From Tigriopus japonicus (lineage: Eukaryota > Arthropoda > Copepoda > Harpacticoida > Harpacticidae): a DNA stretch of 64,000 bases. Positions 6,739-48,100 of the stretch are shown here, piece by piece. Below the pieces are notes generated by a model. It was given only the letters and a program-made list of their open reading frames with translations. It had not been told where the DNA came from and did not search any database. Made by a program: the position numbers and the translations under genes. Where the stretch lies: assembly GCA_010645155.1 (NCBI GenBank), contig JAAGOF010000220.1:450927-514926 (forward strand), read 5' to 3'. Positions within the stretch are counted from its first letter, which is position 1. Each line of letters starts with the position of its first letter.

Positions 6739-7603
6739 CAGGGTGGGCATTTGATTTTTGGACATTTTGTCCACCCCTGTCCAAAAGGTGTCCAAAAGTG
6801 TCCAAAAATAAGGCTGTCCAAAAATAGAAGTGTCCAAAAGTGTCCAGAAATAGTAATTCGAAAAATAATGGTTAAAAAACATTTTTAGAATAACATTCTA
6901 CAAACTTTCTCTCCAAAATAAACGTCACTTGACGAAATCTAAGTAAGAATAAGTCAATTCAGCATAAGAAACTTACACATTATAATTTTTATAACACATT
7001 ATACATTAAATGAGCCAATAACTTGAAGGCCAAACTGGACATTTGAACTTTCCACTCTTTTCATTTGACCACCGAGCATCGTCCAAAATGTGGGAAAGAA
7101 TGATTGACTGAAGGAATGAACGAACAAACGAATGTGAGACTGGGACTAATAATAACAAGCTCACACCACACTTCATGTTAAACATAGTATGCGAGTACAT
7201 TTTAAAGCTAATTGTGTCTTGATTTGTGACAAGAGAAGGTTACTTAGTATTTTGATTTATTTTCCAAAGTTTATCATTGTTGCAAGTGTTTCCCATCCAA
7301 GAGGCAAGATGTCTTTTGACCTGACTGTCCAAAAAATGTTAACTAAAATAAAGCACACTCAAACTGATATCAGATTACAATGTGGGTTTTGTGGGTTGTT
7401 TTACTATTAAAAAAGACAAGACTCTTGTTTACAGATGAGGTAATAAAATGTAAATCTTGAAACATTTTGAACAGTTACACACGTTTTACCATATTGTATA
7501 AACAAAACATTTATTTTTTTAACAAGTTATTAACAAGTTATCATGGCAAAGATTATTTCTCCAAGTAATGTTCCCATTAATAGAACTATTTTTGTTTGAC
7601 AGA
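6739..7603. mobile_element. hAT-like element, copy 1, right end missing
   Basis: It starts with the family TIR cagggtgggcatttgatttt and is collinear with the element at 19525-20927: subterminal gtccaaaa repeats, then ccactcttttcatttgac, then aaataaagcacactcaa. Similarity stops near 7603 and the inverted terminus is absent, so this is a truncated copy. No transposase is encoded. Confidence 0.75.
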
Positions 7604-7863
7604 AAAAAATGAAAGAAAAAGAACAATTTTGACATCGTGATTGGTAAATTGTCTAACTTATTTAAGGACAAACAACTTTTTAAAAACTTTTAGCTTTCCA
7701 CGCTTTCATATTGATGAAGATTTTGTTATATTTTGTCTCAACTGCAAATCTTTTATTCTCAGTTTGACCTTAAATTACCTCAAATTTGAGATACTTTCTT
7801 GGGTTGCTTGCTTATTTTCCACTAGGTTTTTTAGAAGACCCAGAAATTTGTTTCACTCTCAAG

Positions 7864-9092
7864 CAGGGTGGGCATTTTTCGACATCGAGAGAATTTTGGA
7901 CACCCTAGTGTCCAAAAGTGTCCAAAAGTGTCCAAAAATACCCAAAAGGTGTCCAAAAATCCCCAGAAGGTGTCCAAAAATCCCCAGAAGTAGTCCAAAA
8001 ATCCCAGAAGGTGTCCAAAAATCCCCAAAAGATGTCCCAAAGTGTCCAGAAGTCCAACAAACGTTAAACATAAAAGAAAGTTGTACAAATCAGACGAAAA
8101 ACCAGTTACACTACATAAGTAATTGAATTCTAAAGAATGCATGGTTGTACACTTAAACACAAATAGTTTTATTAATGGAAAAATTACTTGGAGAAATAAA
8201 CTTTGCAATGATTACTTCAATCCTTGGTCATGAGGCTATTTGCCTCACTAATTACAATAATATCATTTATATATTTGTAAAACGTAAGAACAATTTGCAT
8301 GTTTTGTCTATACAATATGATGAATGTAAATCTTGAAACATTTTGAACAGTTACACACATTATTTCCTCAAGTGTAAACAAGAGTCTTCTCTTTATTAAA
8401 TTGTAAATCATCACTGCTTAAGTTCTTTGGCAAAAGCATTTCAATACCCACATTGCAATCTGATATCAATTTGAGTGTGCTTTATTTTAGTTCACATTTT
8501 TTTGGACAGTCAGTTCAAAAGACTTCTTGACTCTTGGAAGGGAAACACTTGCAACAATGATAAACTTTGGAATATAAATCAAAATACTAAGTAACCTTCT
8601 CTTGTTACAACATAATCAAGCCACAATTAGCTTTAAAATGTACTCCCATACTATGTTGAACATGAAGTGTGGTGTGAGCGTGTTATTAGTAGTCCCAGTC
8701 TCACATTCATTTGTCCGTTGCTTCGTTTGTTCATTCCTTCAGTCGATCATTCTTTCCCACGTTTTGGACGACGCTCGGTAGTCAAATGAAAAGAGTGGAA
8801 AGTTCAAATATCCAGTTTGGCCTTCAAGTAATTGGCTCATTTAATGTATTATGTGTAAGTTTATTTTTGCTGAATTGACTTATTCTTGCTTAGATTTCGT
8901 CAATTGACGTTTATTTTGGAAAGAAAGTTTGAAGAATGTTATTCTAAGAATGTTTTTAAACATTATTTTGCGAATTATTATTTTTGGACACTTTTGGACA
9001 CTCTTATTTTTGGACACCCTTATTTTTGGACACTTCTGGACACCTTTTGGACAGGGGTGGACAAAATGTCCAAAAATCAAATGCCCACCCTG
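7864..9092. mobile_element. hAT-like element, copy 2; left inversion breakpoint
   Basis: Ends are cagggtgggcatttttcgac and its complement type aaatcaaatgcccaccctg. Both subterminal regions contain repeats of gtccaaaa with cccagaag spacers, forming a minisatellite of about 24 bp at 7905-8045. Flanks do not match each other: ctctcaag on the left (7856-7863), gtcaggaa on the right (9093-9100). Both are reverse complements of the flanks of copy 3. Reading frames across the repeats (such as IFGHFWTLL runs) are repeat artefacts. Confidence 0.85.
7905..8045. repeat. Subterminal minisatellite of the hAT-like family
   Basis: About six units of the form gtccaaaaatccccagaagg, period near 20-24 bp. The same array is inverted at 20705-20885 in copy 3. 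Arrays of short subterminal motifs are known transposase-binding regions in hAT elements; that role here is inference. Confidence 0.75.
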
Positions 9093-9600
9093 GTCAGGAA
9101 TAGTGATGTCGTTTAAACGCCGTTAATCACCGCAGATTCGGGGACTGCCATCAGGTTTCTCCACTACATGTAAAGGGTTAGACCATGGGCTGTCTGAACG
9201 TCGGGCCACTTCCATACCCTCCATACGATCGAACTCCTCCCGAGAGATTGCCAGGTTCTCTGGGGAGAGTCTGCGCACTCGGGCTCGAATTGGGGAACCA
9301 GTAGTTGGAATGCGATGTGTCACACCATGTTTCACAGAAATGTTTGAGAAGTTTGGAACGGTGATGGATGGAAACTAGGCCAAAAGACGAACGTAGACGC
9401 TGTCAGACATGGAAAGTGCCTCCAAACTGGGGGCCATCGAGTTTAATGAAAGGTTGAATGGCACAGTTTCAAATGTATCTTTGTTGACGAGTTGTTGCCC
9501 TCGAATGTCAACCAACAATCCGGAATGGCGCAAAAAGTCGGCCCCCAACGCAATAAAACATTCATTCATTCAGAAGAAATATTATCATATGTAAAAAGGG
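9093..9600 (-). pseudogene. Gypsy element 2, protease-to-RT start fragment
   Basis: Minus-strand frames give a Gypsy pol fragment: a protease-end block with LGADFLRHSGLLVD (9375-9569) and an RT start KHGVTHRIPTTGSPIRARVR, then NPLHVVEKPDGSPRICGD (9123-9335). After ICGD comes a stop, and then the frame reaches IPD at the edge of hAT copy 2. The RT resumes in the opposite orientation at 20928 with the same target octamer and [12 protein letters not shown]. So this is the 5' half of one pol gene split by an hAT insertion and then by inversion. It is not functional. Confidence 0.85.
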
Positions 9601-9879
9601 CTGTTGAATCACAGAATGAAGAATTGATTAGGAAATTTGTTGTTCTTCTAGGTCGTGTGACACAATTTCATTTCAAAATTTGTGAATGACAATCTTGATT
9701 GGAAGAAGATTGTAGTGAAACGAAATAAAGAAACTAAAACAGTACAATTCAGAAGAGATAGAGGCAGCCCATGGGGTTCATGTATATAACCATACATTTA
9801 TATTATATTCATTTATTTATTTTGGACGCCTTGACATGACCCAGACTCGCAAAAAAATATTCAATGAACAGATTAGGAG
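9601..9879. other. Spacer between Gypsy remnants
   Basis: No supported coding content. Probably remaining Gypsy or LTR-element flank. Confidence 0.3.
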
Positions 9880-10032
9880 ATCCATGACGGGAGCGGGATC
9901 TGGAGATTTGGGATCCAGAGTTGTGGGATGCAGAATTGCGGGTTCCAAATTTGCGGGATTCAGAGATGTGGGATCCAGAGATGCAAGATCTGGAGGTTTG
10001 GAATCTGGGGTGTGGAATCATGAGATGTGACG
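9880..10032 (+). repeat. G-rich tandem repeats abutting the LTR
   Basis: Degenerate units of about 12-24 bp built on gggatccagagatg run directly into the LTR at 10033. The complementary C-rich version of this array occurs at 17160-17340 beside a related LTR-element fragment. I read it as the internal part of a small non-autonomous LTR element. Confidence 0.6.
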
Positions 10033-10159
10033 TGTAGCTCCTGCTCGCTAACCTTGCACTCGTGCTCAACCTCGATCCTTGTCTTCTTGTTCCTATTTGA
10101 GATAATAAAAATGCATTCTATTTTTGGATATATTAAAAGCAACTAGTAGTTCGCTTTAT
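10033..10159 (+). repeat. LTR (127 bp) upstream of the Gypsy element
   Basis: Starts tgtagctcctgctcgctaac, contains an aataaa polyadenylation-like word (in gataataaaaatgc), and ends directly before a tggtgacccc primer-binding site. This position and content fit a sense-oriented 5' LTR. Its first roughly 100 bp recur downstream of pol, but inverted (13934-14035). Confidence 0.75.
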
Positions 10160-10170
10160 TGGTGACCCCT
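10160..10170 (+). promoter_or_regulatory. Primer-binding site, tRNA-Trp type
   Basis: tggtgacccct directly follows the LTR. It matches the complement of the 3' end of tRNA-Trp. Use of tRNA-Trp is established for the CsRn1 lineage of Gypsy elements. Confidence 0.7.
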
Positions 10171-10211
10171 ACACTTGAATCAAGCGTTCTCTTGATTCCC
10201 TTCAACCGAAC

Positions 10212-10964
10212 ATGCAAGAAGTGAAAGATATTTCCAAATCTCTCACCCCTCCAGAAGATTATTCTTCCATTTCGGTGTTGTCTCGAGTCGCCGTGAAACT
10301 ACCGGTTTTTTGGTCGGCCCAGCCAAAAATTTGGTTCGCACAAGCAGAGGCTCAATTTGCTCTGCGAAAAATTACCGTGGACGACACCAAATATTACTAT
10401 CTTGTGGGCGCCTTGGATCAAGAGGCCGCGTTACGAGTGGCCGACTTCATCTACGATCCTCCGGAGGTGGACAAATATGCATCTCTCAAGAACCGTCTTT
10501 TGGCCACATTCACTTTGTCCCGGTACCAGATGTCTCAAAAGCTCCTTGGGATGGCCCCGTTAGGTGATCGCCGTCCTTCTCAGCTAATGGATGAAATGTT
10601 AGCTCTACTTGGTGGACATCAACCTTGCTCTCTATTCTTTACCATATTCATGGATTTATTACCTCCAACAATTCGTCCACATTTGGTTCCACTCATGGAA
10701 ACAACAACAGCGCGTGATTTGGCTTTGGCAGCAGACGGTTTAATGTCCTCTGGCATCACAACAATTTCTGCTATCCGAAAAAAATTCGACAAGCCGGGGG
10801 CGGGTTCGTCGAAAAATGGAACTCCGGCTGCAAAGGAATGGTGTCGTCTTCATCGGAAGTTTGGAAACAAAGCTTTCCACTGCGAATCACCCTGTTCATT
10901 CAGCCAAACCCGTGGCTCGCCAATCAATTCGGTCCAGGGAAACGGGGAGTCCGACCATCTTTAA
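10212..10964 (+). CDS. Gypsy (CsRn1-like) gag protein
   Basis: A 250-residue gag-type protein starting 42 bp after the primer-binding site. It would form the particle shell and bind element RNA. The middle (about residues 30-190) has the helical gag look with [14 protein letters not shown], the conserved start of CsRn1-lineage gag. A zinc-binding motif sits near the C-terminus: C211, H214, C224, C228, a CHCC spacing rather than the usual CCHC knuckle. CHCC is known as a hallmark of CsRn1-type elements. The stop at 10964 lies within the pol ORF, which is in the -1 frame. The last codons contain the slippery heptamer. The reading frame is intact. Confidence 0.85.
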
Positions 10965-13900
10965 ATTCAATTGGTGGTCGGTTACTTTTTGTCTCGAATA
11001 AAATTGATAATCAATCCTACCTCGTAGATTCGGGTGCTCAAGTTAGCGTCCTACCAGTGCCCCGTCATATGCGATCCTTGTCTCCTTCCCCAACTTTTTT
11101 AGCTGCGAATGGATCGATCATTAAATCTTTTGGTTCAAAGTCCCAGGTTCTTAAATTGGGTGATCAAACATTTACTTGGACGTTCTATCTTGTGGATATG
11201 AATCAAGCTATTCTCGGGGCAGATTTTCTTCGTGCAAATAATTTGGTTGTCGATCTCCTTCACAATCGTCTTTATAATCCCGTCTCTCAAAATATCATTC
11301 TTGGTCATTTGAGTCGAGCAGAAGCACCTGCGCTCGCTCTTTTGCAGGAAGTCGCGACTTGTTCCTTCTCTGCCATTTTGGAACAGTTCCCGGAGCTTTT
11401 AGTTCCATCCTTTGCTCAAGCTACTCCCAAACATGGGGTTAAACATCGAATTCATACCAATGATCAGATCGTTTTCGCAAGACCAAGACGAATGATGGGC
11501 GATAAGCTTGATGTTGTCAAATCCGAATTTAAAACTATGATGGAAATGAGGATCTGTCGCCGCTCGTCTTCTGATATGGCTTCGCCATTGCATGTAGTGC
11601 CCAAACCAGACGGCAGTTGGCGGCTGGTTGGAGATTACAGGCGATTGAATGATATAACAGTACCAGATCGCTACCCAGTTCCTCACATTCAAGACTTTGC
11701 CGATCGCCTCAATGGTTGTACCATCTTCTCTAAAGTGGACCTCGTTAGAGGTTACAACCAAATTCCTATGCATCCGGATGATGTTGGGAAAACGGCCGTC
11801 ACAACACCTTTTGGTTTATTTGAATTCTTAAGGATGCCTTTCGGGTTGAAAAATGCCGCCCAAACATTTCAACGTCTGATGGATTCGGTGTTGGGCGATC
11901 TTCCTTTCATTTATGTTTATCTGGATGATATTTTAGTGGCAAGCACTACACCCGAAAAACATCGTGAACACCTCTGCATCGTTTTTGAGCGACTTTCCGC
12001 CAACGGGTTAGTCATCAATCGGAAGAAATGTCTGTTTGGACAAGCCGAGCTTTCATTCTTAGGCCACTGCATCAGTGCCCATGGAATCCGACCCTTACGG
12101 GAGAAAATCGCAGCCATTGAGAGGTTCCCTCCACCTCAAACAATTCCCCAACTTCGCGAGTTCATCGGTATGATAACCTTCTATCATCGATTTCTGCCTG
12201 GTTTATCACACGCTCTTGCTCCCTTGCATGAGGCTCTCAAAGGCAGTCCCAAATCACTGGAATGGTCCACGGTTTTGGATGAAGCATTCCGGGCAGCCAA
12301 ATCCCTTCTTGTGCGCACCACCCTTTTGGCTTTTCCGGTCACCTCAGCCCCACTCGCTCTCACCACCGACGCCTCAGAACTTGCTGTGGGCGCTGTTCTG
12401 GAGCAATTTGTGGAGGGTGACTGGCAACCACTCGCTTTCTATTCTCGGAAATTGAGAGATCCAGAAAAAAGGTATTCGACGTACGATTTGGAATTGCTGG
12501 CCATTTATTTGGCCATTCGTCATTTTCGTCATTTTGTTGAGGGCCAGGATTTGACCATCTACACGGATCATCAACCTCTCGTTTTTGCTTTCTCGAAGAC
12601 AACAGACCCTTTGAGCAATCGTCAACATCGTCAGATATTGTTTATCTCCGAGTTTACCACCAAAATTCGGCACATAAAAGGAAAATCCAACGTGGTAGCG
12701 GACTCCCTATCTCGAATTTGTGCCATCACGCCATCCATCACGCCTGAGTCCATCCGCGATGCTCAATTGGCAGATTCGGAAACGCTTTTGGTTCGTACGT
12801 CGTTAACGGCTTTAAAATGGGCTAACGTGGAGGTAATCCCCGGTGTGAATCTCTTGTGTGAGGTGTCCACGGGTCGCCCCAGGCCTTGGGTCCCTTTTCA
12901 AGTTCGTCGTCGTGTTTTTGATGAAGTACATGGTACGTCACATCCGGGCGCTCGGGCATCTCGTCGTGTGATTTCCAAATTCTACATTTGGCACGGTCTC
13001 AATCGTGACATAACGCAATGGGTTCGTGAGTGTGTGTTATGTCAACAAGCAAAAATCACGAGACACACCCGTTCACCCATCCAACACATGGAAATCCCTT
13101 CGGCCCGCTTCAAAGTCATTCATGTTGATTTAGTGGGACCTTTGGAAAGTTCGAATGGCAACAGGTATTTGTTGACAATCATCGATCGTTTCTCTCGTTG
13201 GCCGGAGGCGTTGCCAATACCAGACATCACTGCAGATACGTGTGCCCGCACCTTACTAAGTGGTTGGATTTCCCGTTTTGGCCTACCCGATACAATTGTA
13301 TCGGATAGAGGGACTCAGTTTACCTCTTCTCTGTGGGAGCGCCTCTCGCACTTCTTAGGTTTCGATATCCACCACACCACCGCTTACCATCCCCAATCCA
13401 ATGGGATGGTAGAGCGCCTTCATCGGCAACTAAAGGAATCACTTCGAGCTCGTAGGGCTGGGTGTAATTGGGGTAATGAATTGCCGTGGATTCTCCTTGG
13501 AATCCGAACTGCTCCAAAGGACGATTCGGGCCTATCGCCGGCTCAAATCACCTATGGTTCAAGTTTACGAGTGCCGGGCATAGTATGTGGCCATTTGGAC
13601 AACAATGTGTCAACTACACAGCTTTTTCAAGAAGTCAGTGATTCCCTCCGGAACTATCTACCATCGCAGACTCAATTCCATGGCCGTCAAACATCATTTG
13701 TCTCTTCATCACTTCAACATTGTTCACATGTATGGTTGCGATTAGAAGGATTGCGACCCTCATTGGTCCCTCCGTACGAAGGACCTTTTGAAGTTGTGAG
13801 TCGGAGTGATAAAACCTTTGTAATTAATCACAACGGGGTGCGAAAAACTCTCAGTATAGATCGCCTGAAGCCAGTCATTAACAACAATGTGGTGGATCCT

Positions 13901-13975
13901 CCTACAGTTCGAACCCGATTAGGTAGAGTGTCCAATATATCCAAAAATAGAATGCATTTTTATTATCTCAAATAG
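10838..13975 (+). CDS. Gypsy (CsRn1-like) pol polyprotein: protease, RT, RNase H, integrase
   Basis: An intact 1045-codon frame, probably expressed from residue 36 on as a gag-pol fusion through the -1 slip at 10943; the ATG at 10838 lies inside gag and is unlikely to be used. In order: aspartic protease with DSGA at residue 64; reverse transcriptase with [11 protein letters not shown] and catalytic YLDD at 361-364; RNase H with TTDAS, Asp 511; integrase with an HH-CC zinc region from about 702 (HPGARASRR, then CVLCQQAK) and the catalytic triad D764, D823, E859, a DD35E spacing. All catalytic residues are present. The C-terminus runs into the inverted LTR copy, so the last residues (NRMHFYYLK) are encoded by LTR sequence. 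That suggests a rearranged 3' end and a copy unable to move in the normal way. Confidence 0.92.
10937..10981 (+). promoter_or_regulatory. -1 programmed ribosomal frameshift signal (gag-pol)
   Basis: The heptamer gggaaac (10937-10943) sits in the gag frame as G GGA AAC, the canonical X XXY YYZ register. After a 7-nt spacer there is a stem: ccgaccatc (10951-10959) pairs with ggtggtcgg (10973-10981), nine pairs with one G-U, around a 13-nt loop. A -1 slip here enters exactly the pol frame (codon starting 10943). It comes seven codons before the gag stop. Confidence 0.85.
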
Positions 13976-14035
13976 GAACAAGAAGACAAGGATCGAGGTT
14001 GAGCACGAGTGCAAGGTTAGCGAGCAGGAGCTACA
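13934..14035 (-). repeat. Inverted copy of the LTR downstream of pol
   Basis: The reverse complement of 10033-10135, nearly or fully identical as read by eye: aatatatccaaaaatagaat through gcgagcaggagctaca. The last 24 bp of the LTR are missing at its inner edge. A normal Gypsy has a direct, not inverted, 3' LTR, so this end belongs to another element or results from rearrangement. Confidence 0.85.
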
Positions 14036-14206
14036 TGACGTGTTTTACCCAAGCAGTGATCCGACAGGATCTACCCATGAATCCGTCACGCGTCGTGGAT
14101 CCGGGAAGAGCTTGAGCCAGAGTTTTCCGTGGCACAAGATGAGTCGCGAGTACCAGCCACAGTGTAGCACGTTTGGGTCACCATTATGGTTACCACTTTG
14201 TGAAGT
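14036..14206 (-). mobile_element. Short LTR-element internal region with PBS, minus strand
   Basis: On the minus strand this starts tggtgacccaaacgtg, a tRNA-Trp-type primer-binding site, and runs into the inverted LTR. The internal sequence is related to 17020-17160 on the plus strand (both contain the word ggatccgggaagag or its variant). Together these suggest a family of small non-autonomous LTR elements (TRIM-like) sharing LTRs with the Gypsy. The upstream LTR is missing here. Confidence 0.6.
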
Positions 14207-14274
14207 CGATAGATGGTTTTAGACGGGTTCATTCTTCTCAGAATGAATGTACAATTATATGGGTGTATTATATG

Positions 14275-14370
14275 TTATAACGTGTGGTGAACATCTTCAC
14301 CAATTTCATATCCTTTATCGTTTTTGTGACCAAAATGATGTTTAATACATCGCAAATAAAATATATAATA
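14275..14370 (+). pseudogene. LINE 3' end, relic 2
   Basis: Encodes the tail of the LINE at 742-2310: CGEHLHQFHILYRFCDQND, then an aatacatcgcaaataaaa tail. Only the last roughly 100 bp remain, typical of 5'-truncated LINE insertions. Confidence 0.7.
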
Positions 14371-14774
14371 ATTTACAAGGCATGAATCCACACGGGGAGA
14401 AAAAGCTTTAAAAGTATATGTCTGTCTGTCTGTCACCTTGGTCCCATTTTGCAAGATAACAATCTTTTTAGCTGATGAGGACACGGTCAGTGTTGCCACC
14501 ATTAGTATTTGCGCGAGTTGCCTAAATTATAAAGCCCGATTATGAACCTTGGTTTTTGCCTTTTTAACAAAAGCACTGCCGTTTGATTTATTCACATGAA
14601 CCAAATGGAGAGGCTTGAAGTTCCTGAGCGGTTTTCTTGCAGAGATGGCATATCCAGTGACTTTTCAGACCTCATTGGAGGATGGAAAACAGTGCTGCAT
14701 ATTTTTGATTAAATTTTTCTAGATCACAAAAAGTGATATAATATAGATCACAATCTAGATCACAAAAAGCGACA

Positions 14775-14880
14775 TCAAGTAGGGAACTCCTTGATAGCGA
14801 CCACTTCTTGAGGTGTAGTCGCAAGGAATTTCACATTTTATCTACCGACAATTGTACATGCACTGTGTGTGGTGAATACC
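14775..14880 (+). pseudogene. LINE 3' end, relic 3 (left part, interrupted)
   Basis: Frame LDSDHFLRCSRKEFHILST followed by NCTCTVCGEY parallels the LINE C-terminus at about 2140-2225. It stops at gtgaatacc and resumes at 16409 after a 1.5-kb insertion. Confidence 0.7.
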
Positions 14881-15039
14881 TATGGACGGATTCCCGACTA
14901 CAAAAGTAGAAGTCAGCTGCCAGTGGTCAAAATCTTGAAGGCGCCAAATTTGAAAAACCTCAAGTTGCAACACGAGGACCTACCTAATTTAGTTTTAATC
15001 TAAATTGAACCTAAATTAAACTAATTTATTCCTAATGTA

Positions 15040-15438
15040 ATGCTACATGACCTTTTGCACAACAGAAGTAACATCTTCAGTCCTCTTCAAAGTCTTTATT
15101 CACTAAAGATGATTCATTGCAGACCACTTTCTCTGCAACCAAAGTCTCTTGAATGTTCTCTGCCATCAAAGCCGTCTGGATTGTTTCTTCAACTTTCCTG
15201 CTTTGTCTGTTCAAGAGACCACAACTTTCAACTTACTGCAAGATCTATGGACAAAATGATATTGAACCAAAATATCCTGATTTCCTCTGGCAAACTTTGG
15301 ATATGCTTTGCATCACATCTTGACATCGCCCAAAGAAACTCCATCACATATTCGTCACTCCCCATAACAAGGGGCCAAAAGAACTTCTCAATGTTGGCCT
15401 CCCAGTATGTCTCACCCAGTGGTACAACAACAGATTGA
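15040..15438 (+). other. 132-codon frame inside long-TIR element, unassigned
   Basis: An open frame with no recognised motif, rich in Ser, Leu and Phe. It may be chance coding in captured or filler DNA. I do not claim it is a gene. Confidence 0.2.
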
Positions 15439-15486
15439 TGAGCACATCGCTTTTGAGGACTGTTGAGTCATTGGTTTGCTAGCTAC

Positions 15487-15596
15487 TGTGATACCATGCT
15501 CTTGTTCTAGTCATTTCCCTGTGATATATAAACGTGTATTCTCCGTAATAAAAGAGGTCAAACTAGTTTTGTCCATGACTTACTAGGCACAGTCTG
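15487..15596 (+). repeat. Degenerate LTR related to the 21700 mini-element
   Basis: Shares with the LTR at 21700-21822 the order ttctagtcattt, a tataaa box region, and gaggtcaaactagtt, then ggcacagtc where the complete element has its primer-binding site. Only one LTR is visible, so this is a fragment. Confidence 0.6.
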
Positions 15597-15689
15597 TTTG
15601 TCCGACCTGCTGCCCTCTGTTCATGGAACTTGTCATAGTGATTCACAGGTGAATCACTATCACAAGGTCATTCTCTCAATCACTATCAC

Positions 15690-15905
15690 CCTGCAACCAA
15701 GGCCACTGTCCGCCTCTTGATCAAGGCCACCGTCCGCCTCTTAATCAAGGCCACTGTCCACCTGTTGATCAAGGCCACCGTCCGCCTGTTGATTGAGGCC
15801 ACTGTCCACCTGTTGATCAAGGCCACTGTCGGCCTGTTGATCAAGGCCACTGTCTGCCTGTTGATTGAGGCCACCGTCCGCCTGTTGATTGAGGCCAACA
15901 TCCGC
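15690..15905. repeat. 30-bp minisatellite (aaggccaccgtccgcctgtt)
   Basis: About seven units of a 30-bp repeat built on gaggccactgtccgcctgttgatca. The same unit family fills the mini-LTR element at 21945-22350. Translations such as VALINRRT or TVRLLIKA repeats are artefacts of the array. Confidence 0.85.
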
Positions 15906-16408
15906 CTCTGCACCTCCAAATCATATCCACAACTGTTGAGCCTACCTCTAGCATTCCTGGAAAATTCACGCTGCTTCTTGATCTGTCCATCCATTGACCT
16001 TTGCCGCCCAATCAAAGTACTTCACATAATCCACTAACTTGCCCTCAGGTTTCTTCAGAACTGTCCATAGCCACACACCCCACAACTTGAACTGCTCACA
16101 GCCATCTCAGCTTTGCATTCCCCAGAATCCGTCATCTTTGAACAATGGACACGACTTTGACCGTTTTGACACCTACTCAACCAGGCTCCACCGCTTCCAC
16201 CATGTAGCAATTGAAAAGGATTGTGATATCTGTGGATTTTTAAATAGAATGTATTTCTCAGAACAGAGGGTTGCATTTAGTGTAAATACAAGTGATAATA
16301 AATCTGAAGAACCTTGTATTGCTACTTGAGGTCATTCAAATTTGGCGCCTTCAAGATTTCGACCAGGGGCAGCTGACTTCTCCTTTTGTTGTCGGGAATC
16401 CGTCTATA

Positions 16409-16490
16409 GTGAATACCTTCACCATTTTCTTCTTTTTCATAATTTCTGTGACCATCCTGATGTTTGAGACATCGCAAAATAAACAAGCAA
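16409..16490 (+). pseudogene. LINE 3' end, relic 3 (right part)
   Basis: Continues the LINE tail after the insertion: GEYLHHFLLFHNFCDHPDV, then gagacatcgcaaaataaa. Confidence 0.7.
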
Positions 16491-16852
16491 TATCTCATGA
16501 AGCAAAAAAGTACCCCACTTGCTTAATTTGAATATATTTGATTCTTATTTAAATTCCTTAGGTTTTTTTTAGTTAAATGGTTGTGTTGGTTGTTTTTACC
16601 TGAGACGTTCACAATTTTCAACCTTCTAAACCAGTTTTTTAACTTAAAAATCACTCAGATTGCGTTTCTTCTTAAAAAAAATTCGACCAAAAATTGTGTT
16701 TGAAAACTTACAAACATAAGAAAACCTTGTTGTTGAACGTTTACTTGTTGAATTTATTTGCACTTCCTGGAAAATTTGCATTGATATCTACAATTTTCTT
16801 GCCTTGAATTGTCCGGCATGAAAATTTCGACTTACCGCAAATCTTGGGCATG

Positions 16853-17345
16853 GTGTTGTGGGGTAAATTAACCCCTCTTGAAATGCTCGACTGAGGTACG
16901 TTAGCACCACCATATAAATATCGTATTTCCTCGTTAATAAATAGTTTAGTCAACATCACTGACTCATCAAGATAGGAGATCTTGCGATCCCTATAATGGT
17001 ATCCCTATCCCTATAATGACCCCGAACGTGTAGCACTTTGGCTGGCACTCGTCTAGTGCTGGTAACACCTTGATCATGGCGATCCTCGGCTCTGGCTCTT
17101 CCCGGATTCACGGCACGTGCCGGATCCACGGGTTGACCCTGCCGGTTCAATGCTGTGGCCAAAACACGCTGCACCTCCGGACCCCGCATCTCCGGATCCC
17201 GCATCTCCGAATTCCACATCTCCAGATCCCGCATCGCCGAATTCCGCATCTCCGGATTCCGCCTCGTCTTGGATCCCCTGGACCACCTCGTCTTGGATCC
17301 CCTGGACCGCCTCGTCTTGGATCCCCTGGACGAGTAGTTGATACT
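16853..17345 (+). mobile_element. LTR-element fragment in the paralog exon
   Basis: Plus-strand order: an LTR-like block starting tgttgtggggtaaattaacc with a tataaata box and aataaa, ending gtcaaca (about 16853-16955); a tgaccccgaacgtg primer-site-like sequence near 17022; internal sequence related to 14036-14205; then a C-rich array of ccgcatctccggatc and ctcgtcttggatcccctgga units. No second LTR is seen and the host exon lost bases, so it is not a clean insertion. Confidence 0.55.
17160..17340. repeat. Tandem repeats in LTR-element fragment
   Basis: Two neighbouring arrays: about six 12-bp units of ccgcatctccgg type, then three units of about 27 bp with ctcgtcttggatcccctgga. Long frames on both strands here are repeat artefacts. 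Confidence 0.75.
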
Positions 17346-17429
17346 CCCCTGATGAGTAGTTTCCACGAAAATTTCGTGATCTTGGTAATTTATCCCCTCT
17401 GACACGCAATGGGCAAATTCTATGATATA

Positions 17430-19070
17430 CAGTCAGGAGCAAAAGTATTCGTAACCTCGAAAATTTTATTGATTTTTAAATGATACTCGATTTTTGAAAA
17501 ATACATTTAAGAACCATTTTGCTCCTTAGTTATTCTTTTATCATTTAAAAGCTATGATACTTTTCTTTTTAAAAATTTACAAGATTTTGGTTAAAAAACT
17601 GCTCAGAACATGTTTTAGACCAAGAGCATAAGTATTCGTAACATTTTGTCAATAGTTTATTGAACGCCCTTTTTGCTGAATTACACTTAAGAGACGTTTT
17701 TTTATAATCATTTACAAGATTTTTCCATACATCTGAAGGAATGTTAGCCCATTCTTCATAACAGATTTGCTCCAGTTCGTCAATTGTCTTTGGACGTCTT
17801 GCACGGATACGGACTTTTAATTCTCTCCAAAGGTTTTCAATTGGATTAAGGTCCGGATTCATGGAGGGCCAGTCCAAGACCTTAATCCGATTGTCCTTCA
17901 ACCATTTCTTGACCAAAATGCTGTTGTGCTTAGGGTCGTTGTCGTGCTGGAAGACAAACTGTCGACCAAGCCGAAGTTTCCGCGCTGAACTCTGGAGATT
18001 CTCAGCCAAGATATCCCGATAGTCTTCTTTTTTCATTGTCCCATGAATTCTCACGAGGTTACCGGTGCCTTTGGCGGAAAAGGAGCCCCATAACATGATC
18101 GATCCTCCACCGTGCTTGACCGTAGGGATGGTGTTTTTTGGATGAAATGCTTCTCCTTTACGTCGCCAAATCCTTTGAACATCGTTGTGACCAAAAAGCT
18201 CAACCTTTGTCTCATCTGACCAAAGAATCCTAGACCAAAAGTCACTGGTCTTGTCAAGGTACTTCTTGGCAAATTCCAAGCGAGCCTTCAAGTGTCTATC
18301 CTTGAGCAAGGGAGTCTTCCGTGGGCGACAAGACTTCAATCCTACTTTGTGAAGTGAGCGAGCAACAGTAAACCTCGAGATAGACAATCCATTTTCACTG
18401 AGACTGTTCCGGATGTCCTTGACCGTTGTTCGAGGATTATTTGTGACCTCTCTGACAATCTTCCTCTCAAGTCTGGCTGACAGTTTCCTTGGACGACCGG
18501 ACTTGGGAGGTTCTCAACCGTTCCGTTCTTTTATGCCTTCTTCACGACGTACTGAATCGTTGAAATCGGGATGTCCAGAAGCTTCGAAATGGCTCTGTAG
18601 CCCTTGCCTCCATGATGAAGACATACTATCTTCAACTTCAAGTCCTTGTCGAGCTCCTTGACCTTGGTCATGATTGGCTGACTGTGAAGCAATTGTTCAA
18701 TTCCGTAAAATTTATAAGATCCAAGAAAGATCTAGAAAATCTTGGAACAAAGGAGACTAAATGACTTTTCTCCGGCTTTCCAGAATGTTCTACATCTTTC
18801 GATCAATTTTTTCTGATGAAAAATCTGTTTATAAACCTATTTTGTTAACTTTTATGCCCGTTACGAATACTTTTGCACTATCTAAAATTTTATTTTTAAT
18901 AATTAAAAGTTAGTTACAGACATTTTCATAAAACAATTGTGGGAAACTGGTATTATTCTTAATCGGAAAAAAATATTACATTCTTACAAACTTCTTAGCA
19001 TAGTATTTAATTGGATATAAAGGATTTTCTGGTTTTCTCGTCACGTTACAAATACTTTTGCTCCTGACTG
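17430..19070 (-). mobile_element. Tc1-like DNA transposon with both TIRs
   Basis: Ends cagtcaggagcaaaagtatt and its inverted partner aatacttttgctcctgactg, each bordered by a TA target dinucleotide (17428-17429, 19071-19072). About 1.64 kb with a single transposase gene on the minus strand, normal for Tc1. It landed in intron 1 of the broken PAN paralog: sequence on both sides matches the same intron of the gene at 36174. Confidence 0.95.
17569..18671 (-). pseudogene. Tc1 transposase, DD34E, broken N-terminal domain
   Basis: Starts MTKVKELDKDLKLKIV and has the first helix-turn-helix of a Tc1 transposase. After about 50 codons there is a TAA stop (following VVKKA), and shortly after the frame shifts by one. 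From there the frame is open to the end through the second DNA-binding region (SGRPRKLSARLERKIVREV) and the full catalytic core: WSDETKVELFG with the first Asp, QHDNDPKHN with the second, and NPDLNPIENLWREL with the Glu. Counting gives 34 residues between the second Asp and the Glu. The catalytic half (17569-18387) is intact. It would cut and paste the element; this copy cannot make full-length protein. Confidence 0.9.
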
Positions 19071-19524
19071 TAACATGCAATGAAGTTCATCAATAACAAG
19101 GAAAAATTATCACCCTCAAGTAGACAAGATAGGTAAGAATGCAAAAAGGATTCCAAGCCACCACACTTGCACAACAATATTTTTATTTATTAATTGGACA
19201 TAACCATCCACATTCAATAATCACTTAAAACATCTGGAACAACACCATTAAAAATGAGAACCTATAAACCTTCGGAAATATCTAAATTGGAGGAAATTAT
19301 TTCCCTCAGTTGACCTTTTTTAACATCTTTATTTTTACATTAACGGTCGCCAAACCAGTTTAAAGACAAGAAATATTTCAAAACTACTTTCAATTGACAA
19401 TTTTACAAAATTATTATAACATTTACATTTAAAAGTTCTAAAAGTAAAAAACAATTTAGCGACAATTATAAAAAATAATATAAGCACAAAATAGTTTTAT
19501 TACCAAATCTGCAAGGCTTGAGAG
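19071..19524 (-). pseudogene. Intron 1 remnant of the broken PAN-CTLD paralog
   Basis: Read on the minus strand, aaactggtttggcgac and the following gttaatgtaaaaa match 36465-36490 in intron 1 of the second PAN gene; cattgcat near the Tc1 edge matches its 3' part. The block ends at the hAT copy at 19525. No coding sequence. Confidence 0.55.
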
Positions 19525-20927
19525 CAGGGTGGGCATTTGATTTTTGGACATTTTGTCCACCCCTGTCCAAAAGGTGTCCAAAAGAGTCCAAAAGTGTCCA
19601 AAAATAAGGGTGTCCAAAAATAAGAGTGTCCAAAAGTGTCCAAAAATAATAATTCGCAAAATAATGTTTAAAAACATTCTTAGAATAACATTCTTCAAAC
19701 TTTCTTTCCAAAATAAACGTCAATTGACGAAATCTGAGCAAGAATAAGTCAATTCAGCAAAAATAAACTTACACATAATACATTAAATGAGCCAATTACT
19801 TGAAGGCCAAACTGGACATTTGAACTTTCCACTCTTTTCATTTGACTACCGAGCGTCGTCCAAAACGTGGGAAAGAATAATCGACTGAAGGAATGAACAA
19901 ACGAAGCAACGGACAAATGAATGTGAGACTGGGACTACTAATAACACGCTCACACCACACTTCATGTTCAACATAGTATGGGAGTACATTTTAAAGCTAA
20001 TTATGGCTTGATTATGTTGTAACAAGAGAAGGTTACTTAGTATTTTGATTTATATTCCAAAGTTTATCATTGTTGCAAGTGTTTCCCTTCCAAGAGTCAA
20101 GAAGTCTTTTGAACTGACTGTCCAAAAAAATGTGAACTAAAATAAAGCACACTCAAATTGATATCAGATTGCAATGTGGGTATTGAAATGCTTTTGCCAA
20201 AGAACTTAAGCAGTGATGATTTACAATTTAATAAAGAGAAGACTCTTGTTTACACATGAGGAAATAATGTGTGTAACTGTTCAAAATGTTTCAAGATTTA
20301 CATTCATCATATTGTATAAACAAAACATGCAAATTGTTCTTACGTTTTATAGATAGATAGATGTATTTCGAAGGATGCGATTGTTAATAAACAGCAACAC
20401 ATATTTTTTTCCATCGTTATCCTTCTGAGGTGAGCCGAAAATCCAAAGTGGATGCATTACACAAATTTGTGTATTTGTTTTACAAATATATAAATGATAT
20501 TATTGTAATTAGTGAGGCAAATAGCCTCATGACCAAGGATTGAAGTAATCATTGCAAAGTTTATTTCTCCAAGTAATTTTTCCATTAATAAAACTATTTG
20601 TGTTTAAGTGTACAACCATGCATTCTTTAGAATTCAATTACTTATGTAGTGTGACTGGTTTTTCGTCTGATTTGTACAACTTTCTTTTACGTTTAACGTT
20701 TGTTGGACTTCTGGACACTTTGGGACATCTTTTGGGGATTTTTGGACACCTTCTGGGATTTTTGGACTACTTCTGGGGATTTTTGGACACCTTCTGGGGA
20801 TTTTTGGACTCCCTCTGGGGATTCTTGGACACCTTTTGGGTATTTTTGGACACTTTTGGACACTTTTGGACACTTTTGGACACTAGGGTGTCCAAAATTC
20901 TCTTGATGTCGAAAAATGCCCACCCTG
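19525..20927. mobile_element. hAT-like element, copy 3; right inversion breakpoint
   Basis: An inverted near-copy of 7864-9092. Left end cagggtgggcatttgatttt, right end gaaaaatgcccaccctg. Flanks are cttgagag (19517-19524) and ttcctgac (20928-20935). These are the reverse complements of the left and right flanks of copy 2. It is longer than copy 2 mainly because of an insertion at about 20349-20490. No transposase. Confidence 0.88.
20349..20490 (-). mobile_element. Short retro-insert inside hAT copy 3, possible LINE 3' end
   Basis: Copy 2 reads straight through acgttttacaaat, whereas here gtttta is followed by about 140 bp and then gtttta again. The insert starts with a tagatagatagatg microsatellite, a type of 3' tail seen in some LINEs read from the other strand. 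The direct repeat gtttta would be the target duplication. Confidence 0.5.
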
Positions 20928-21690
20928 TTCCTGACAGATATCCTATCCCAAACATTCAGGACTTCTCAGTCAATCTGGATGGCAAGGTAATATTCTCGAA
21001 ATTGGATTTGATTCGAGGTTACCACCAAATACCCCCTGAACCTGAAGATATCCCGAAAGCTGACATTACTACTCCTTTCGGACTTAACGAGTTCACACGC
21101 ATGCCATTTGGCCTAAAAAATGCGGCGCAAGCGTTCCAGCGTTTAATGGACGTGGTGTTTGCCGGATTACCTTGCACGTTTGTGTATTTGGATTACATTT
21201 TAATCGCAAGCACTTCTGAAGAGGAGCACATCCGTGATCTTGAACATGTTTTTCGCCGTTTGAGGGACCATGGCCTGGTGGTGAACCCGGCCAAGTGCGT
21301 TTTGGGAGCAACGAGCATTGATTTTTGGGACACCGGGTGGATCAGCATGGGGTGGTGCCGCTCCCAGAGAAAGTTCAAGTTGTGTGGAATTTCCCAAAAC
21401 CAACAACAGTCAAAGGTCTGCAGGAATTTATTGGCATGGTTAATTTTTACCATCGCTTTGTCACGTTGGCTGCGCTCTCATGCAACCACTTCATCATGCA
21501 TTGCGAGGAACTTCTACTCCGCGATTGTTGACCTGGACGGCGGAGATGGATTAGGCGTTCCAGAAAACCAAGGAAGCTTTGGCCACGGCCACCTTGCTGG
21601 CACAAGATACCTTTCATACCTTCTCCAAGTAGTGTACAGCCCTAACTTCTGGAGCCTCTCCCAATACAAGAGCTCTCTCATTCCTGTGAT
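20928..21690 (+). pseudogene. Gypsy element 2, RT remainder and RNase H start
   Basis: Begins at the target octamer ttcctgac and reads [18 protein letters not shown], then [33 protein letters not shown] and [11 protein letters not shown]. The catalytic box is YLDY rather than YLDD, so the second Asp is lost. A frameshift near 21320 moves the sequence to another frame ([15 protein letters not shown], then [14 protein letters not shown]), and several stops follow. The copy ends where the mini-LTR element inserted (21700). Its 5' half lies inverted at 9093-9600. The first part of the long frame 20552-21778 is hAT repeat sequence, not protein. Confidence 0.88.
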
Positions 21691-21944
21691 GTTCCTAGTT
21701 GTGAAGTCCTTGCTCTGCTGTGTTCCAGTCATGCTCATTCTAGTCATTTCTACTGTGTATAAATACGTGAATGTCTAGTCAAATAAAGGAGAGGTCAAAC
21801 TAGTTGAGTCAATGACTAAACATGGCACAGTCGGTTCTTCCAACCTATTGTCCTCAGTTCATGGAACTTGTGAATCGTGATAGTGCAGTTACACCGGTGG
21901 ACATCTGAGGACAGTAGTTCGGAGAACCTGTGACTGACGTCGAG

Positions 21945-22350
21945 GCCACCGTCGCCCTGTTGATCGAGGCCACCCGACGCCTATTGATCAAGGCCACCTG
22001 ACGCCTGTTGATCGAGGCCACCCGACGCCTGTTGATCAAGGCCACTCAACGCCTGTTGATCAAGGCCACTCAACGCCTGTTGATCAAGGCCACTCAACGC
22101 CTGTTGATCAAGGTCACTCAACGCCTGTTGATTGAGGCCACCCAACGCCTGTTGATTGAGGGCACCCAATGCCTGTTGATCGAGATCACCCAACGCCTGT
22201 TGATTGAGGCCACCCAACGCCTGTTGATTGAGGGCACCCAATGCCTGTTGATCGAGATCACCCAACGCCTGTTGATTGAGGCCACCCAACGCCTGTTGAT
22301 CAAGGCCACCCGACGCCTGTTGATTGAGGCCACCGTCCGCCTGTTGATCA
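21945..22350. repeat. 30-bp minisatellite in mini-LTR element
   Basis: About thirteen units on the pattern cacccaacgcctgttgatcaagg; some form a higher-order repeat of three units (atcacccaacg, gcca, ggca variants at 22130-22290). Peptide runs such as LNQQALGG are read from this array and are not genes. Confidence 0.9.
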
Positions 22351-22374
22351 AGGCACCACCCAGGAATCCCGTCA

Positions 22375-22670
22375 TCAACCCTGCCCCAGTGCGTGGTGGG
22401 ATTCCATCGTCGACCCTGCCCCAGTGCGTGGTGGGATTACGTCGTCGACCCTGCCCCAGTGTGTGGTGAGATTCCGTCAACACTGTCGTGGAGGCATGCG
22501 AGTTCCCGTCGACCCTGCCGTGGAGGCACGAGATCTTGTCGCCCCTGCCGTGAAGGCACGAATTCCCGTCGACCCTGCCGTGAAGGCACGAATTCCCGTC
22601 GACTCTGCCATGAAGGCACGAGTTCCCGTCAACCCTGCCATGAGGCACGAGTTCCCTGCAACCTTACCCC
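22375..22670. repeat. Second minisatellite in mini-LTR element
   Basis: First, about three units of 36-38 bp with gaccctgccccagtgcgtggtg; then about six units of 30 bp with gaccctgccgtgaaggcac. The two arrays share the gaccctgcc core. Confidence 0.85.
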
Positions 22671-23878: not shown

Positions 23879-24870
23879 TTAATTGTCTTTCAAAAGTAAT
23901 GGTTGATTGGTTGTGTCAATAAACAAAATTGGCACAAGTCTCTTTGTCAACTGGGATATGAATTCCCCACTGTTTACTCGAACAAAACCATCTTTGAGTG
24001 CGAATCTTGCTGAGAGACCCTTAAATTGATTGTAGAAGCTAATCGAACTTGGAATCTCTCTCTTTGCAACCATCAACTGCATGAGTTACAACAGTTCTTG
24101 CGTTATATTACCCCTAACGTATTCTAAAATTTGATTTGTTACCTGCATCATTGGCTCGATTGTTGGCAGACGAGGCAAATTACATGGACTTGCTCTCTTT
24201 GTGTCCATATTAAACATTTGTGGATTGTGTCTAACATCTGCTCCAAGCAAATACATGCTTTTAGTATCATGTACAATTCCTAAGGTCTCTGAAAAGTAGG
24301 AAAAATAACCATTATTTCGAAATATTTCGAATAAAGCCAATAAATCAAACTGCTACCACTGTCGGTAACACAATTTCGCTCCGAGTTGGAACAATTAGAG
24401 CAGGATCGGTCCAAAAGAGGGCAATCGTTGGTCATCAGACAAGATTCATGAACCGGATGATAAGTGTTCCAAAAACATTCCTGGTGGGTCTTACAAATAG
24501 AGCCACATTCTTTGGCACTGCCCACTTTCCTGATTTCTTCCAGGGCTCCATAGCATCTTCCATGGACTCCACATTGGACCTCGGGACATTCTTCCTCTCC
24601 GCTGATGCAATTGTCTAGGCATTTCTCATCGGACAATTGCAAACATCCGGACAAAAGGGTACAACTTTGTGAATCTTTATAGAAGGTGAACCAAGTGCAA
24701 CCCGTCACATTTTGGCAAAGTCTCCAACATTTTTTGCAGTCTTTGGTGGGTGTGGCGTCTGATATTTGTGAATCGAGGCAATCACCCGGTACGAAACATT
24801 GAAGACCTTTCTAAGATAGGACCCCAGTTATCCAAAGCTGGAACAATAGCACAAAGATGTTAATCTTCAT
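23879..24870 (-). CDS. Secreted cysteine-rich apple-like protein, possibly broken
   Basis: Three exons fit: 24870-24357, 24288-24143 and 24076-23879, with GT-AG introns of 68 and 66 bp and consistent phases. Residues 1-19 (MKINIFVLLFQLWITGVLS) are a signal peptide. Then come two cysteine-rich, apple/PAN-like repeats: CTWFTFYKDSQSCTLLSGC with CLDNC, and CGSICKTHQECFWNTYHPV with CSNCS. The last two exons (VHDTKSMYLLGADVRHNPQM, LPRLPTIEPMM) weakly recall a kelch-type propeller blade, but this is uncertain. Codon 20 (24811-24813) is an in-frame TAG directly after the signal peptide. Either the gene is dead, or the true exon begins at a TCTTAG acceptor here with an unseen first exon. Function unknown; likely secreted. 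Confidence 0.6.
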
Positions 24871-45100: not shown

Positions 45101-48100
45101 AGCAGTGACTAAATTTGAAAATGCTTGGAGAGGTTGTTCAATGCCCGCAATCCCTAAAGTTCATCTCATTGTTGATCATTTGGTGGATTTTGTCATCAGC
45201 CGCGGGAGCAAACACATGCAACTGTATGCCGAACAAGCCCACGAAACTCTTCATTCAGAATACCTGAAAACTTGCGAGCGGTTTGCAGTCAAAGAGATGA
45301 CATGTCCCACCTATGCAACGAATCTATTGCGAAGTGTTCTTGACTTCAATGGTCACCATGCTAATAAATAAGCCTGTTATGTTCCTCCACCTTTCATTCT
45401 ATTCGTGTGCTATTGATGGGAAAAAACCAATTTTCGTCAAAATGAACGTCATTTATTATATTGCTTCATCAGAATACAACTAAATTTGATACGTACTATC
45501 CACCAAATCTGTATTGATTAGAGGAGATAACCCTAGATTAGAGTACTGGCATTATTTTGCATAAGAATTAACTCATCCAGGCGTGTTTTTGGGTTTTGAA
45601 GTTGTGCATATTTCAGTGAATTCTCTTTTTTGTATATTTGGTGCTACATTTAAAAAAAATCGAAATTGGGAGTATTCGGCAAAATTTCAGCAAATTTACT
45701 TTGGTATTAATTAGGGTTGGTAATAGAATCCACTTACAAATGGCTAGTAATCGGGTGCTATTCAATGAATTTGTTCCAAAGGTCAGAGCTTCTTGTAATG
45801 CCGTGACCCGGTAAGATTCCAAGAGGGGCTGGCTTTTTCATAAGTGGTCACCTCGAAGTGCCATTTGATGGGACCTGTTGCATGGTTTGAGGNNNNNNNN
45901 NNNNNNNNNNNNNNNNNNNNNNNNNNNNNNNNNNNNNNNNNNNNNNNNNNNNNNNNNNNNNNNNNNNNNNNNNNNNNNNNNNNNNNNNNNNNNNNNNNNN
46001 NNNNNNNNNNNNNNNNNNNNNNNNNNNNNNNNNNNNNNNNNNNNNNNNNNNNNNNNNNNNNNNNNNNNNNNNNNNNNNNNNNNNNNNNNNNNNNNNNNNN
46101 NNNNNNNNNNNNNNNNNNNNNNNNNNNNNNNNNNNNNNNNNNNNNNNNNNNNNNNNNNNNNNNNNNNNNNNNNNNNNNNNNNNNNNNNNNNNNNNNNNNN
46201 NNNNNNNNNNNNNNNNNNNNNNNNNNNNNNNNNNNNNNNNNNNNNNNNNNNNNNNNNNNNNNNNNNNNNNNNNNNNNNNNNNNNNNNNNNNNNNNNNNNN
46301 NNNNNNNNNNNNNNNNNNNNNNNNNNNNNNNNNNNNNNNNNNNNNNNNNNNNNNNNNNNNNNNNNNNNNNNNNNNNNNNNNNNNNNNNNNNNNNNNNNNN
46401 NNNNNNNNNNNNNNNNNNNNNNNNNNNNNNNNNNNNNNNNNNNNNNNNNNNNNNNNNNNNNNNNNNNNNNNNNNNNNNNNNNNNNNNNNNNNNNNNNNNN
46501 NNNNNNNNNNNNNNNNNNNNNNNNNNNNNNNNNNNNNNNNNNNNNNNNNNNNNNNNNNNNNNNNNNNNNNNNNNNNNNNNNNNNNNNNNNNNNNNNNNNN
46601 NNNNNNNNNNNNNNNNNNNNNNNNNNNNNNNNNNNNNNNNNNNNNNNNNNNNNNNNNNNNNNNNNNNNNNNNNNNNNNNNNNNNNNNNNNNNNNNNNNNN
46701 NNNNNNNNNNNNNNNNNNNNNNNNNNNNNNNNNNNNNNNNNNNNNNNNNNNNNNNNNNNNNNNNNNNNNNNNNNNNNNNNNNNNNNNNNNNNNNNNNNNN
46801 NNNNNNNNNNNNNNNNNNNNNNNNNNNNNNGCGCATTCTGCGTCAGAAGTGCAAGGCTAATCCGGGAGTGGTCAGACTTTTTTCCGACGAGTCAATTTTC
46901 ACTGTGGACGGGGCCTACAACCCCCAAAATGACCGGTGGTTGGCTGGGGACAGAGCCTTGGTCCCTCCGGTCATGAGGACCAAGAAGCCGGCCAAAATCA
47001 TGGTGTTTGGCCTTGTCACGAGCGACGGGAAAGTGATGCCCGCCCACATCTTTCCATCTGATGTCAGAGTGAACACAGACGTCTACATGGGGCTTCTGGA
47101 TGAGGTAGTTTTGCCATGGTTGGCCGCCCAGTATCCCCCAGATCAAAAGTTCATGTGGATCCAAGACTCAGCACCGGCCCATGTCTCCAAAAAGGCGATC
47201 AACTTCCTCAGTAACAAGTTCGACGTTCTGATCAAACCCAATGAATGGCCTTCCAACAGCCCAGACCTCAACCCATGCGACTTCTAGTTGTGGTCAGAGC
47301 TGCGAAGGAAGGTCAACAAGAAGCCTCACAACAGCTTGGGCACTCTGAAGTCATCAGTCAAGAGAAACATGGCCACTTTCAGCACGGCTGAGGTTTCCAA
47401 AGCCTGCTCCGCCGTCATCCGCCGCCTGAGCGATGTCATCAAGGCCGAGGGCGGCCATTATAATATTTTTATTATTTTGAGTTTTTATATGAGCATTATA
47501 TTGAGTAAAATCAATGAACTATGTTCCATTCAAACTAATTGCACAAAATAAATTATCCTTTTACTCCAAATCTTGCTGCAGCAGACGTTTCAAATCAATT
47601 GTCAATACTACTGCCCCACTCTGTACATGTATCTCTGCTGTTCCTTGAATGGATGGATGGACTAGCAGTTGTAGGATTGGTCGGTGTCAAATGCGGTGGT
47701 GTCATATCGGTGCCCATATCATAAAGCTTTAAACAAGCCAAACAAGAGGGAAGTGCAAAAGAAAAAATACAACAAATTAAAGATGGCAAAGATACGTCAA
47801 CTTGACCCTAGCGACAAGTGGCTTTAACGTAAAGCTTCAAAAAAGCCCAACAAACCAAGAAGCACAAGAGAAAAAATGCAGTCAATAGGAGACTTTGACC
47901 CAAAAAAATATTGAAGCAATAGCTTGAGCACTTCATATTATGCAATAAAAAACTGAATTGCGCGTTATTGGCACGATTTACTTAAACTAATCGCAAAATC
48001 GAATTTCGTTTTAACTTTTACTTCCTGGATTGATGGTGGCGTCATCAACGGCAAACACTTAAAGCTTCAAAAAAGACCAACAACTCGACCAAGTTGACGT

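Follow-up and report, generated by a model that had tools for sequence, protein, structure and literature searches.

Inversion between two hAT-like copies

In the present assembly of the copepod Tigriopus japonicus, a 10.4-kb segment is inverted, and its two breakpoints lie at two inverted copies of a hAT-like transposable element. The stretch analyzed, hereafter the window, comprises 64,000 nucleotides of contig JAAGOF010000220.1 (GenBank assembly GCA_010645155.1, positions 450,927 to 514,926, forward strand), and the two copies, E1 and E2, occupy positions 7864-9092 (plus strand) and 19525-20927 (minus strand). The present order is derived, as supported by three independent lines of evidence, namely the swapped target duplications of the elements, a Gypsy fragment and a dispersed repeat. 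The inversion is tentatively attributed, at somewhat less than an even chance, to a natural single-step event in which a transposase would have used the ends of a single non-autonomous hAT-like element, taken from both sister chromatids.

The 8-bp flanks of both elements were read from the window on the plus strand. E1 is bordered on the left by CTCTCAAG (target copy a, 7856-7863, the outer flank) and on the right by GTCAGGAA (target copy t in reverse complement, 9093-9100, the inner flank). E2 is bordered on the left by CTTGAGAG (target copy a in reverse complement, 19517-19524, the inner flank) and on the right by TTCCTGAC (target copy t, 20928-20935, the outer flank). The reverse complement of CTCTCAAG is CTTGAGAG and that of TTCCTGAC is GTCAGGAA, so that the target duplications are exactly swapped between E1 and E2; the chance of two exact 8-base matches is about 4^-16. 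Both elements share the inverted ends CAGGGTGGGCATTT / AAATGCCCACCCTG. The segment between them, X (9093-19524, 10,432 bp), gives the restored order when read as its reverse complement, and both 8-bp duplications pair when it is un-inverted. Neither site showed any gain or loss beyond 8 bp when compared with the relatives of the Gypsy fragment and of the dispersed repeat.

The element family

Perfect duplications were found in most other copies of the family, and therefore the swapped flanks are not its normal state. A pair of ends was obtained for 36 of the 38 other copies fetched (the exceptions being L071 and L073), taking the pair with the better duplication where several fitted equally; the target duplication was perfect (8/8) in 31 of these 36 and 7/8 in one. 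The flanks did not match in the other four (L049, L061, L070 and L074), and the ends assigned to L070 and L074 are uncertain. The unmatched flanks of L049, L061 and L070 may be the products of other rearrangements. A genome-wide search for either L061 flank, as an exact pattern next to another element end, returned 0 matches in both cases, and a comparison by eye only gave no pairing for the flanks of L049, L070 and L074. Both the E1 and the E2 targets fit a weak preference, nYYnnRRn, which was derived from the same 31 duplications (12 fit, vs 6% expected).

Terminal inverted repeats starting with CAGGG are a trait of hAT elements. E1 and E2 have ends of this type, the 8-bp duplication is found family-wide, and both open reading frames (ORFs) listed over E1, which is 1,229 bp long, were without a Pfam match. 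Judging from the ends, the duplication and the lack of a recognized transposase, E1 and E2 likely belong to a non-autonomous hAT-like family. Among the six hAT transposase loci inspected out of 36 Dimer_Tnp_hAT matches in the genome, one (L090) had CAGGG ends and an 8-bp duplication, and two (L089 and L092) had single ends at two mismatches from those of the family. The 35 other copies retained for alignment were a median of 98.2% alike and nine of them lacked any singleton, a near-identity that suggests recent transposase activity. A truncated copy of the family, E0 (6739-7597, minus strand), lies 266 bp from E1; it is approximately 90% like E1 and E2, and many other copies match its end at 7400-7597 at 97-98%.

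Ancestral order of the segment

The restored junctions are contiguous in most of the relatives examined for two repeats, and for this reason the present order is taken as the derived one. The first repeat is a degenerate Gypsy pol fragment, whose upstream piece (9093-9560, minus strand) ends in ITIPD and whose downstream piece, from the same reverse transcriptase (RT), lies at 20928-21400 on the plus strand. The pieces were searched separately (9560 to 9093 on the minus strand and 20928 onward on the plus strand), and both were present and abutting at the expected codon position in 9 of the 13 non-self subjects (L011, L012, L014, L015, L017, L019, L020, L021 and the window's own Gypsy element). 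A single piece was found in the other four, the left one in L010 and the right one in L016, L018 and L022. The right piece matched the Pfam family RVT_1 (E 1.1e-23). The left piece contains stop codons and by itself matched no Pfam family at 0.001, and thus its identity depends on the relatives.

The second repeat is a dispersed one, interrupted by both E1 and the inversion, one part of which lies at 7598-7863 (plus strand) and its continuation at 19427-19524 (minus strand). The first part and the reverse complement of approximately 19427-19524 form one repeat, and the restored junction 7863/19524 falls inside it. In six of nine distinct genomic copies, the repeat ran straight through this junction with target copy a present exactly once. 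A seventh copy (L045) had a different final base in the target, the match of L038 was confined to the left flank, and L046 was not contiguous. These nine copies came from 14 fetched loci, some of which were the same place fetched again; eight of them were top matches of one or other flank, and L081 was chosen because both flanks match.

A preliminary description of this DNA, which had been based on the swapped duplications and on the rejoining of a Gypsy RT, held up in both respects, and the junction within the dispersed repeat adds a third line that it had not contained. The same description presented recombination between the two inverted copies as the proven cause; the inversion and its derived state were borne out, but the proof of that cause was not.

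Relationship between E1 and E2

The alignment and tree of 37 copies, comprising E1, E2 and 35 of the 38 fetched, showed E1 and E2 to be exclusive sisters, apparently copies of one parent; L071 and L073 (unpaired ends), L074 (poor end call) and the truncated E0 were omitted from the core counts and the tree. The pair shared 33 core sites exclusively, against four for the next best pair. Its core identity was 99.2%, vs 89-94% for E1 against the rest, and its branch had a length of 0.043 and a support of 100, with tips of 0.0037 and 0.0047. The core singletons of the pair numbered three and five.

Over the aligned bases E1 and E2 were 98.8% identical, with 15 base differences, five of them in a tandem-repeat tract that also differs by 31 bp of gaps. 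The differences in the core were distributed over the whole element (1-2 per 205-bp bin). Each of the 10 differences outside this tract was a change in one copy, five times in E1 and five times in E2, against at least 34 of the 35 others, and consequently no crossover could be mapped; the alignment of the two elements, proposed earlier for that purpose, was run and yielded no informative sites. Two insertions, of 133 and 10 bp, were found in E2 only. The 133-bp insertion (20350-20482) is absent from all 35 other copies, starts with TAAAAC, which is repeated just after it, and has a short CTAT repeat at its end; it is a late insertion of small size.

E1 and E2 carry a divergent patch (E1 411-615), which accounts for 36 of the 81 core differences of E1 from the family and so weakens the use of these differences as a clean clock. 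A search with the patch, in which 40 of 297 candidates were scored, recovered E1, E2 and a truncated third copy on contig C11 (94%); the remaining places matching most of the patch did so at 84% or less. The third copy has 21 of the 30 pair-private sites within its span and is equally far from E1 and E2 (94.45 and 94.40%). At the sites within its span where E1 and E2 differ, it agrees with one or the other, except at one repeat site. No mosaic or chimera was visible in E1 or E2 when their differences were compared with the 35 other copies and the third copy. Recombination between sister parents would likewise leave no trace of a crossover.

Origin of the inversion

A symbolic model of the flank order was built for three routes, namely ectopic recombination, one-step hybrid insertion and a flip of the whole E-X-E unit, and all of them gave the order observed. 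Because several routes lead to the same flanks, the swapped duplications alone do not prove recombination, and the sister-copy test adds the discrimination that they lack.

In the one-step hybrid insertion, X would have lain in the opposite direction before the event, with a single hAT-like element at one site. The ancestral order would be L - a - (element) - a - X - t - R, or the mirror image in which t holds the element. A transposase supplied in trans would act while the DNA was being replicated or afterwards, combining the element's right end from one chromatid with its left end from the sister chromatid, and this hybrid pair of ends would insert into a nearby 8-bp target. In one orientation, the insertion would flip X and swap the 8-bp duplications without losing any DNA, and the two breakpoints would each end up with a sister copy in inverted orientation. 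The inversion and the duplication of the element would then be one event, carried out by a transposase, as we infer from the following. The swapped duplications are those expected of a hybrid insertion, as is the absence of any deletion or duplication beyond 8 bp; the model, starting from one element, reproduced the observed order exactly; and the data on E1 and E2 are consistent with copies identical at birth, which would be equally expected after local transposition.

Several points weigh against the hybrid insertion. The normal transposition of hAT elements is conservative, and events with hybrid ends make up a minority of the products. The six hAT transposase matches inspected, out of 36, included no autonomous partner with this pair of ends. 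As many as 16 of the 33 exclusive sites fall in the divergent patch, and they do not amount to 33 independent changes; closer kin of the pair may also have been missed, as 40 candidates were scored per search. Finally, the same sequence would result if the element had first transposed locally and the new sisters had then recombined, and the identity of the copies cannot separate the two histories.

In that second history, an inverted sister copy would have been sent 10.4 kb away by local transposition, and a later ectopic recombination between both copies would have flipped X. It accounts for the sisterhood, the inverted orientation and the swapped duplications, and its steps are commoner than a hybrid insertion. 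Elements of the hAT type commonly move to nearby sites, and inverted repeats longer than 1 kb are able to recombine. On the other hand, it calls for two events instead of one, and we know of no uninverted two-element state. The two histories are considered nearly equal in probability, each somewhat short of even, with the hybrid insertion slightly ahead.

Recombination between two independently inserted copies, with their identity perhaps due to gene conversion, also gave the same flank order in the model, and ectopic recombination is the origin given for the Galileo and BuT5 inversions in excerpts of the published reports (PMC2775673, PMC3355041). Nevertheless, only three copies with the divergent patch were found, and two of these are exclusive sisters at a distance of 10.4 kb from each other, a situation that unrelated insertions followed by recombination would hardly explain. 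Moreover, no chimera was visible, and the conversion would need to span the full length of the elements. Hence, this origin is regarded as improbable.

An assembly error or a minority haplotype, in which X was flipped by the assembler across the inverted repeats, would mimic the same pattern, and so the flanks alone do not exclude it. Errors of this type are likely at inverted repeats of 1.2-1.4 kb and 98.8% identity, and contig C21, on which the window lies, measures only 1.32 Mb, but other contigs of 10-15 Mb in this assembly (194.85 Mb in 158 contigs) suggest long reads that span 1.4 kb, and this explanation is held to be very unlikely.

Two further routes were considered. A flip of the whole E-X-E unit should leave excision footprints. 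None were seen, and this route was provisionally set aside. Reversed-ends transposition was rejected, since X, which this process would not keep in place between the elements, is present, the duplications pair after un-inverting and no new duplication is needed; its line in the symbolic check was a stated expectation and not a simulation. Such transposition leaves a newly made duplication, according to excerpts of PMC8225341.

Content of the inverted segment and its neighborhood

X is rich in transposons. The ORFs of at least 120 amino acids with a Pfam match within it correspond to the gag and pol of Gypsy and to a Tc1/mariner transposase, and seven further ORFs of this size had none (shorter exons were not looked for). 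No host gene was recognized in X among these ORFs by Pfam, and a functional effect of the inversion is not expected. The inversion of the preliminary description thus stands, but its picture of a reshaped chromosome was generous for a segment containing a Gypsy copy, minisatellites and a Tc1/mariner copy, with no recognized host gene. The Tc1/mariner transposase ORF (17569-18513) and an adjacent repeat (18525-19072), which is 97-98% like 39 other listed places, probably form one element (17569-19072, minus strand).

X also contains a distinct Gypsy element (10033-14035, plus strand), whose ORFs are gag-like and pol. Its ends are 102-bp inverted repeats, 100% identical, instead of direct long terminal repeats (LTRs), and a matching 5-bp duplication, TGACG, is present at both sides. 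In a related copy on contig C98, the repeat adjacent to the 3' end follows a G-rich tract and points the other way, as in an LTR. A second, short unit (L085, G000:C12:5962130-5962970) has the same 102-bp sequence and adjacent bases inverted at both ends, with a base change in its first 102-bp copy and AAAAC flanks on both sides. Nothing relevant to LTR elements with inverted ends was found in the titles and abstract openings of the matches listed (8 of 18).

Related minisatellite arrays are located inside X (15698-15897) and outside it (21940-22660), currently in the same orientation. Elsewhere in the window, positions 45893-46830 are 938 bases of N, and an ORF at 24280-24810 (minus strand) had only two protein matches (eight candidates), both from Tigriopus californicus, at 76 and 60% identity, values that point, for this one protein, to a Tigriopus species other than T. 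californicus.

Comparison with known systems

The inversion described here is small and clean, with both breakpoints resolved to the ends of the elements, and its ancestral order can be read from two unrelated repeats without a sister genome. Other inversions credited to recombination on swapped duplications alone could be re-read by the sister-copy test. If the one-step hybrid insertion is true, swapped duplications would be ambiguous in general, though some papers take them as proof of recombination, and the event would be recognizable by breakpoint copies that are exclusive sisters. In the titles and abstract openings of the papers listed, with most subscription journals outside the scope, no natural inversion attributed to hybrid insertion and no copepod case of such an inversion was found.

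The comparisons that follow draw on excerpts of the cited papers. Inversions with swapped duplications at transposon copies are already known from Drosophila (PMC2775673, PMC3355041), as are non-autonomous hAT elements at the inversions of Atlantic cod (PMC12368964). The cod inversions resemble the present one in having non-autonomous hAT copies at both breakpoints, but they are chromosome-scale and involve tandem arrays of miniature inverted-repeat transposable elements (MITEs); the phrase "target site duplication" has 0 occurrences in the main text of that report. The inversion 2s of Drosophila mojavensis, at a MITE named BuT5, has swapped 9-bp duplications and was assigned to ectopic recombination, the swap being treated as unequivocal evidence; unlike here, one of its copies is reduced to a 27-bp footprint (PMC3355041).

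The Galileo inversion 2z3 of Drosophila buzzatii also shows inverted copies at the breakpoints, swapped duplications and otherwise no gain or loss (PMC2775673). Its copies are chimeric, with a crossover within 141 bp, whereas those described here are sisters in which the crossover is unmappable; Galileo belongs to the P superfamily and makes 7-bp duplications, in contrast to the 8-bp ones of the hAT-like family. In the same paper (Delprat et al., 2009), a hybrid insertion at the same site is said to resemble ectopic recombination very closely but to leave copies that are identical and not chimeric, and recombination was concluded from the chimeric state of Galileo.

The alternative transposition of maize Ac/Ds (reversed-ends and sister-chromatid) shares with the present case the 8-bp duplications and, if a transposase was at work here, the origin of inversions from ends of different copies (PMC8225341). 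Nevertheless, reversed-ends inversions of Ac/Ds start from two linked elements and make a new target duplication, a pattern that is absent here. A further likeness is to the hybrid insertion of the Drosophila P element (Gray et al., 1996, via PMC2775673 and PMC8225341), whose sister-chromatid prediction for copies at the same site is the outcome observed here. That process was described for P elements of Drosophila melanogaster, whereas the window holds only its possible fossil outcome, in a hAT-like family.

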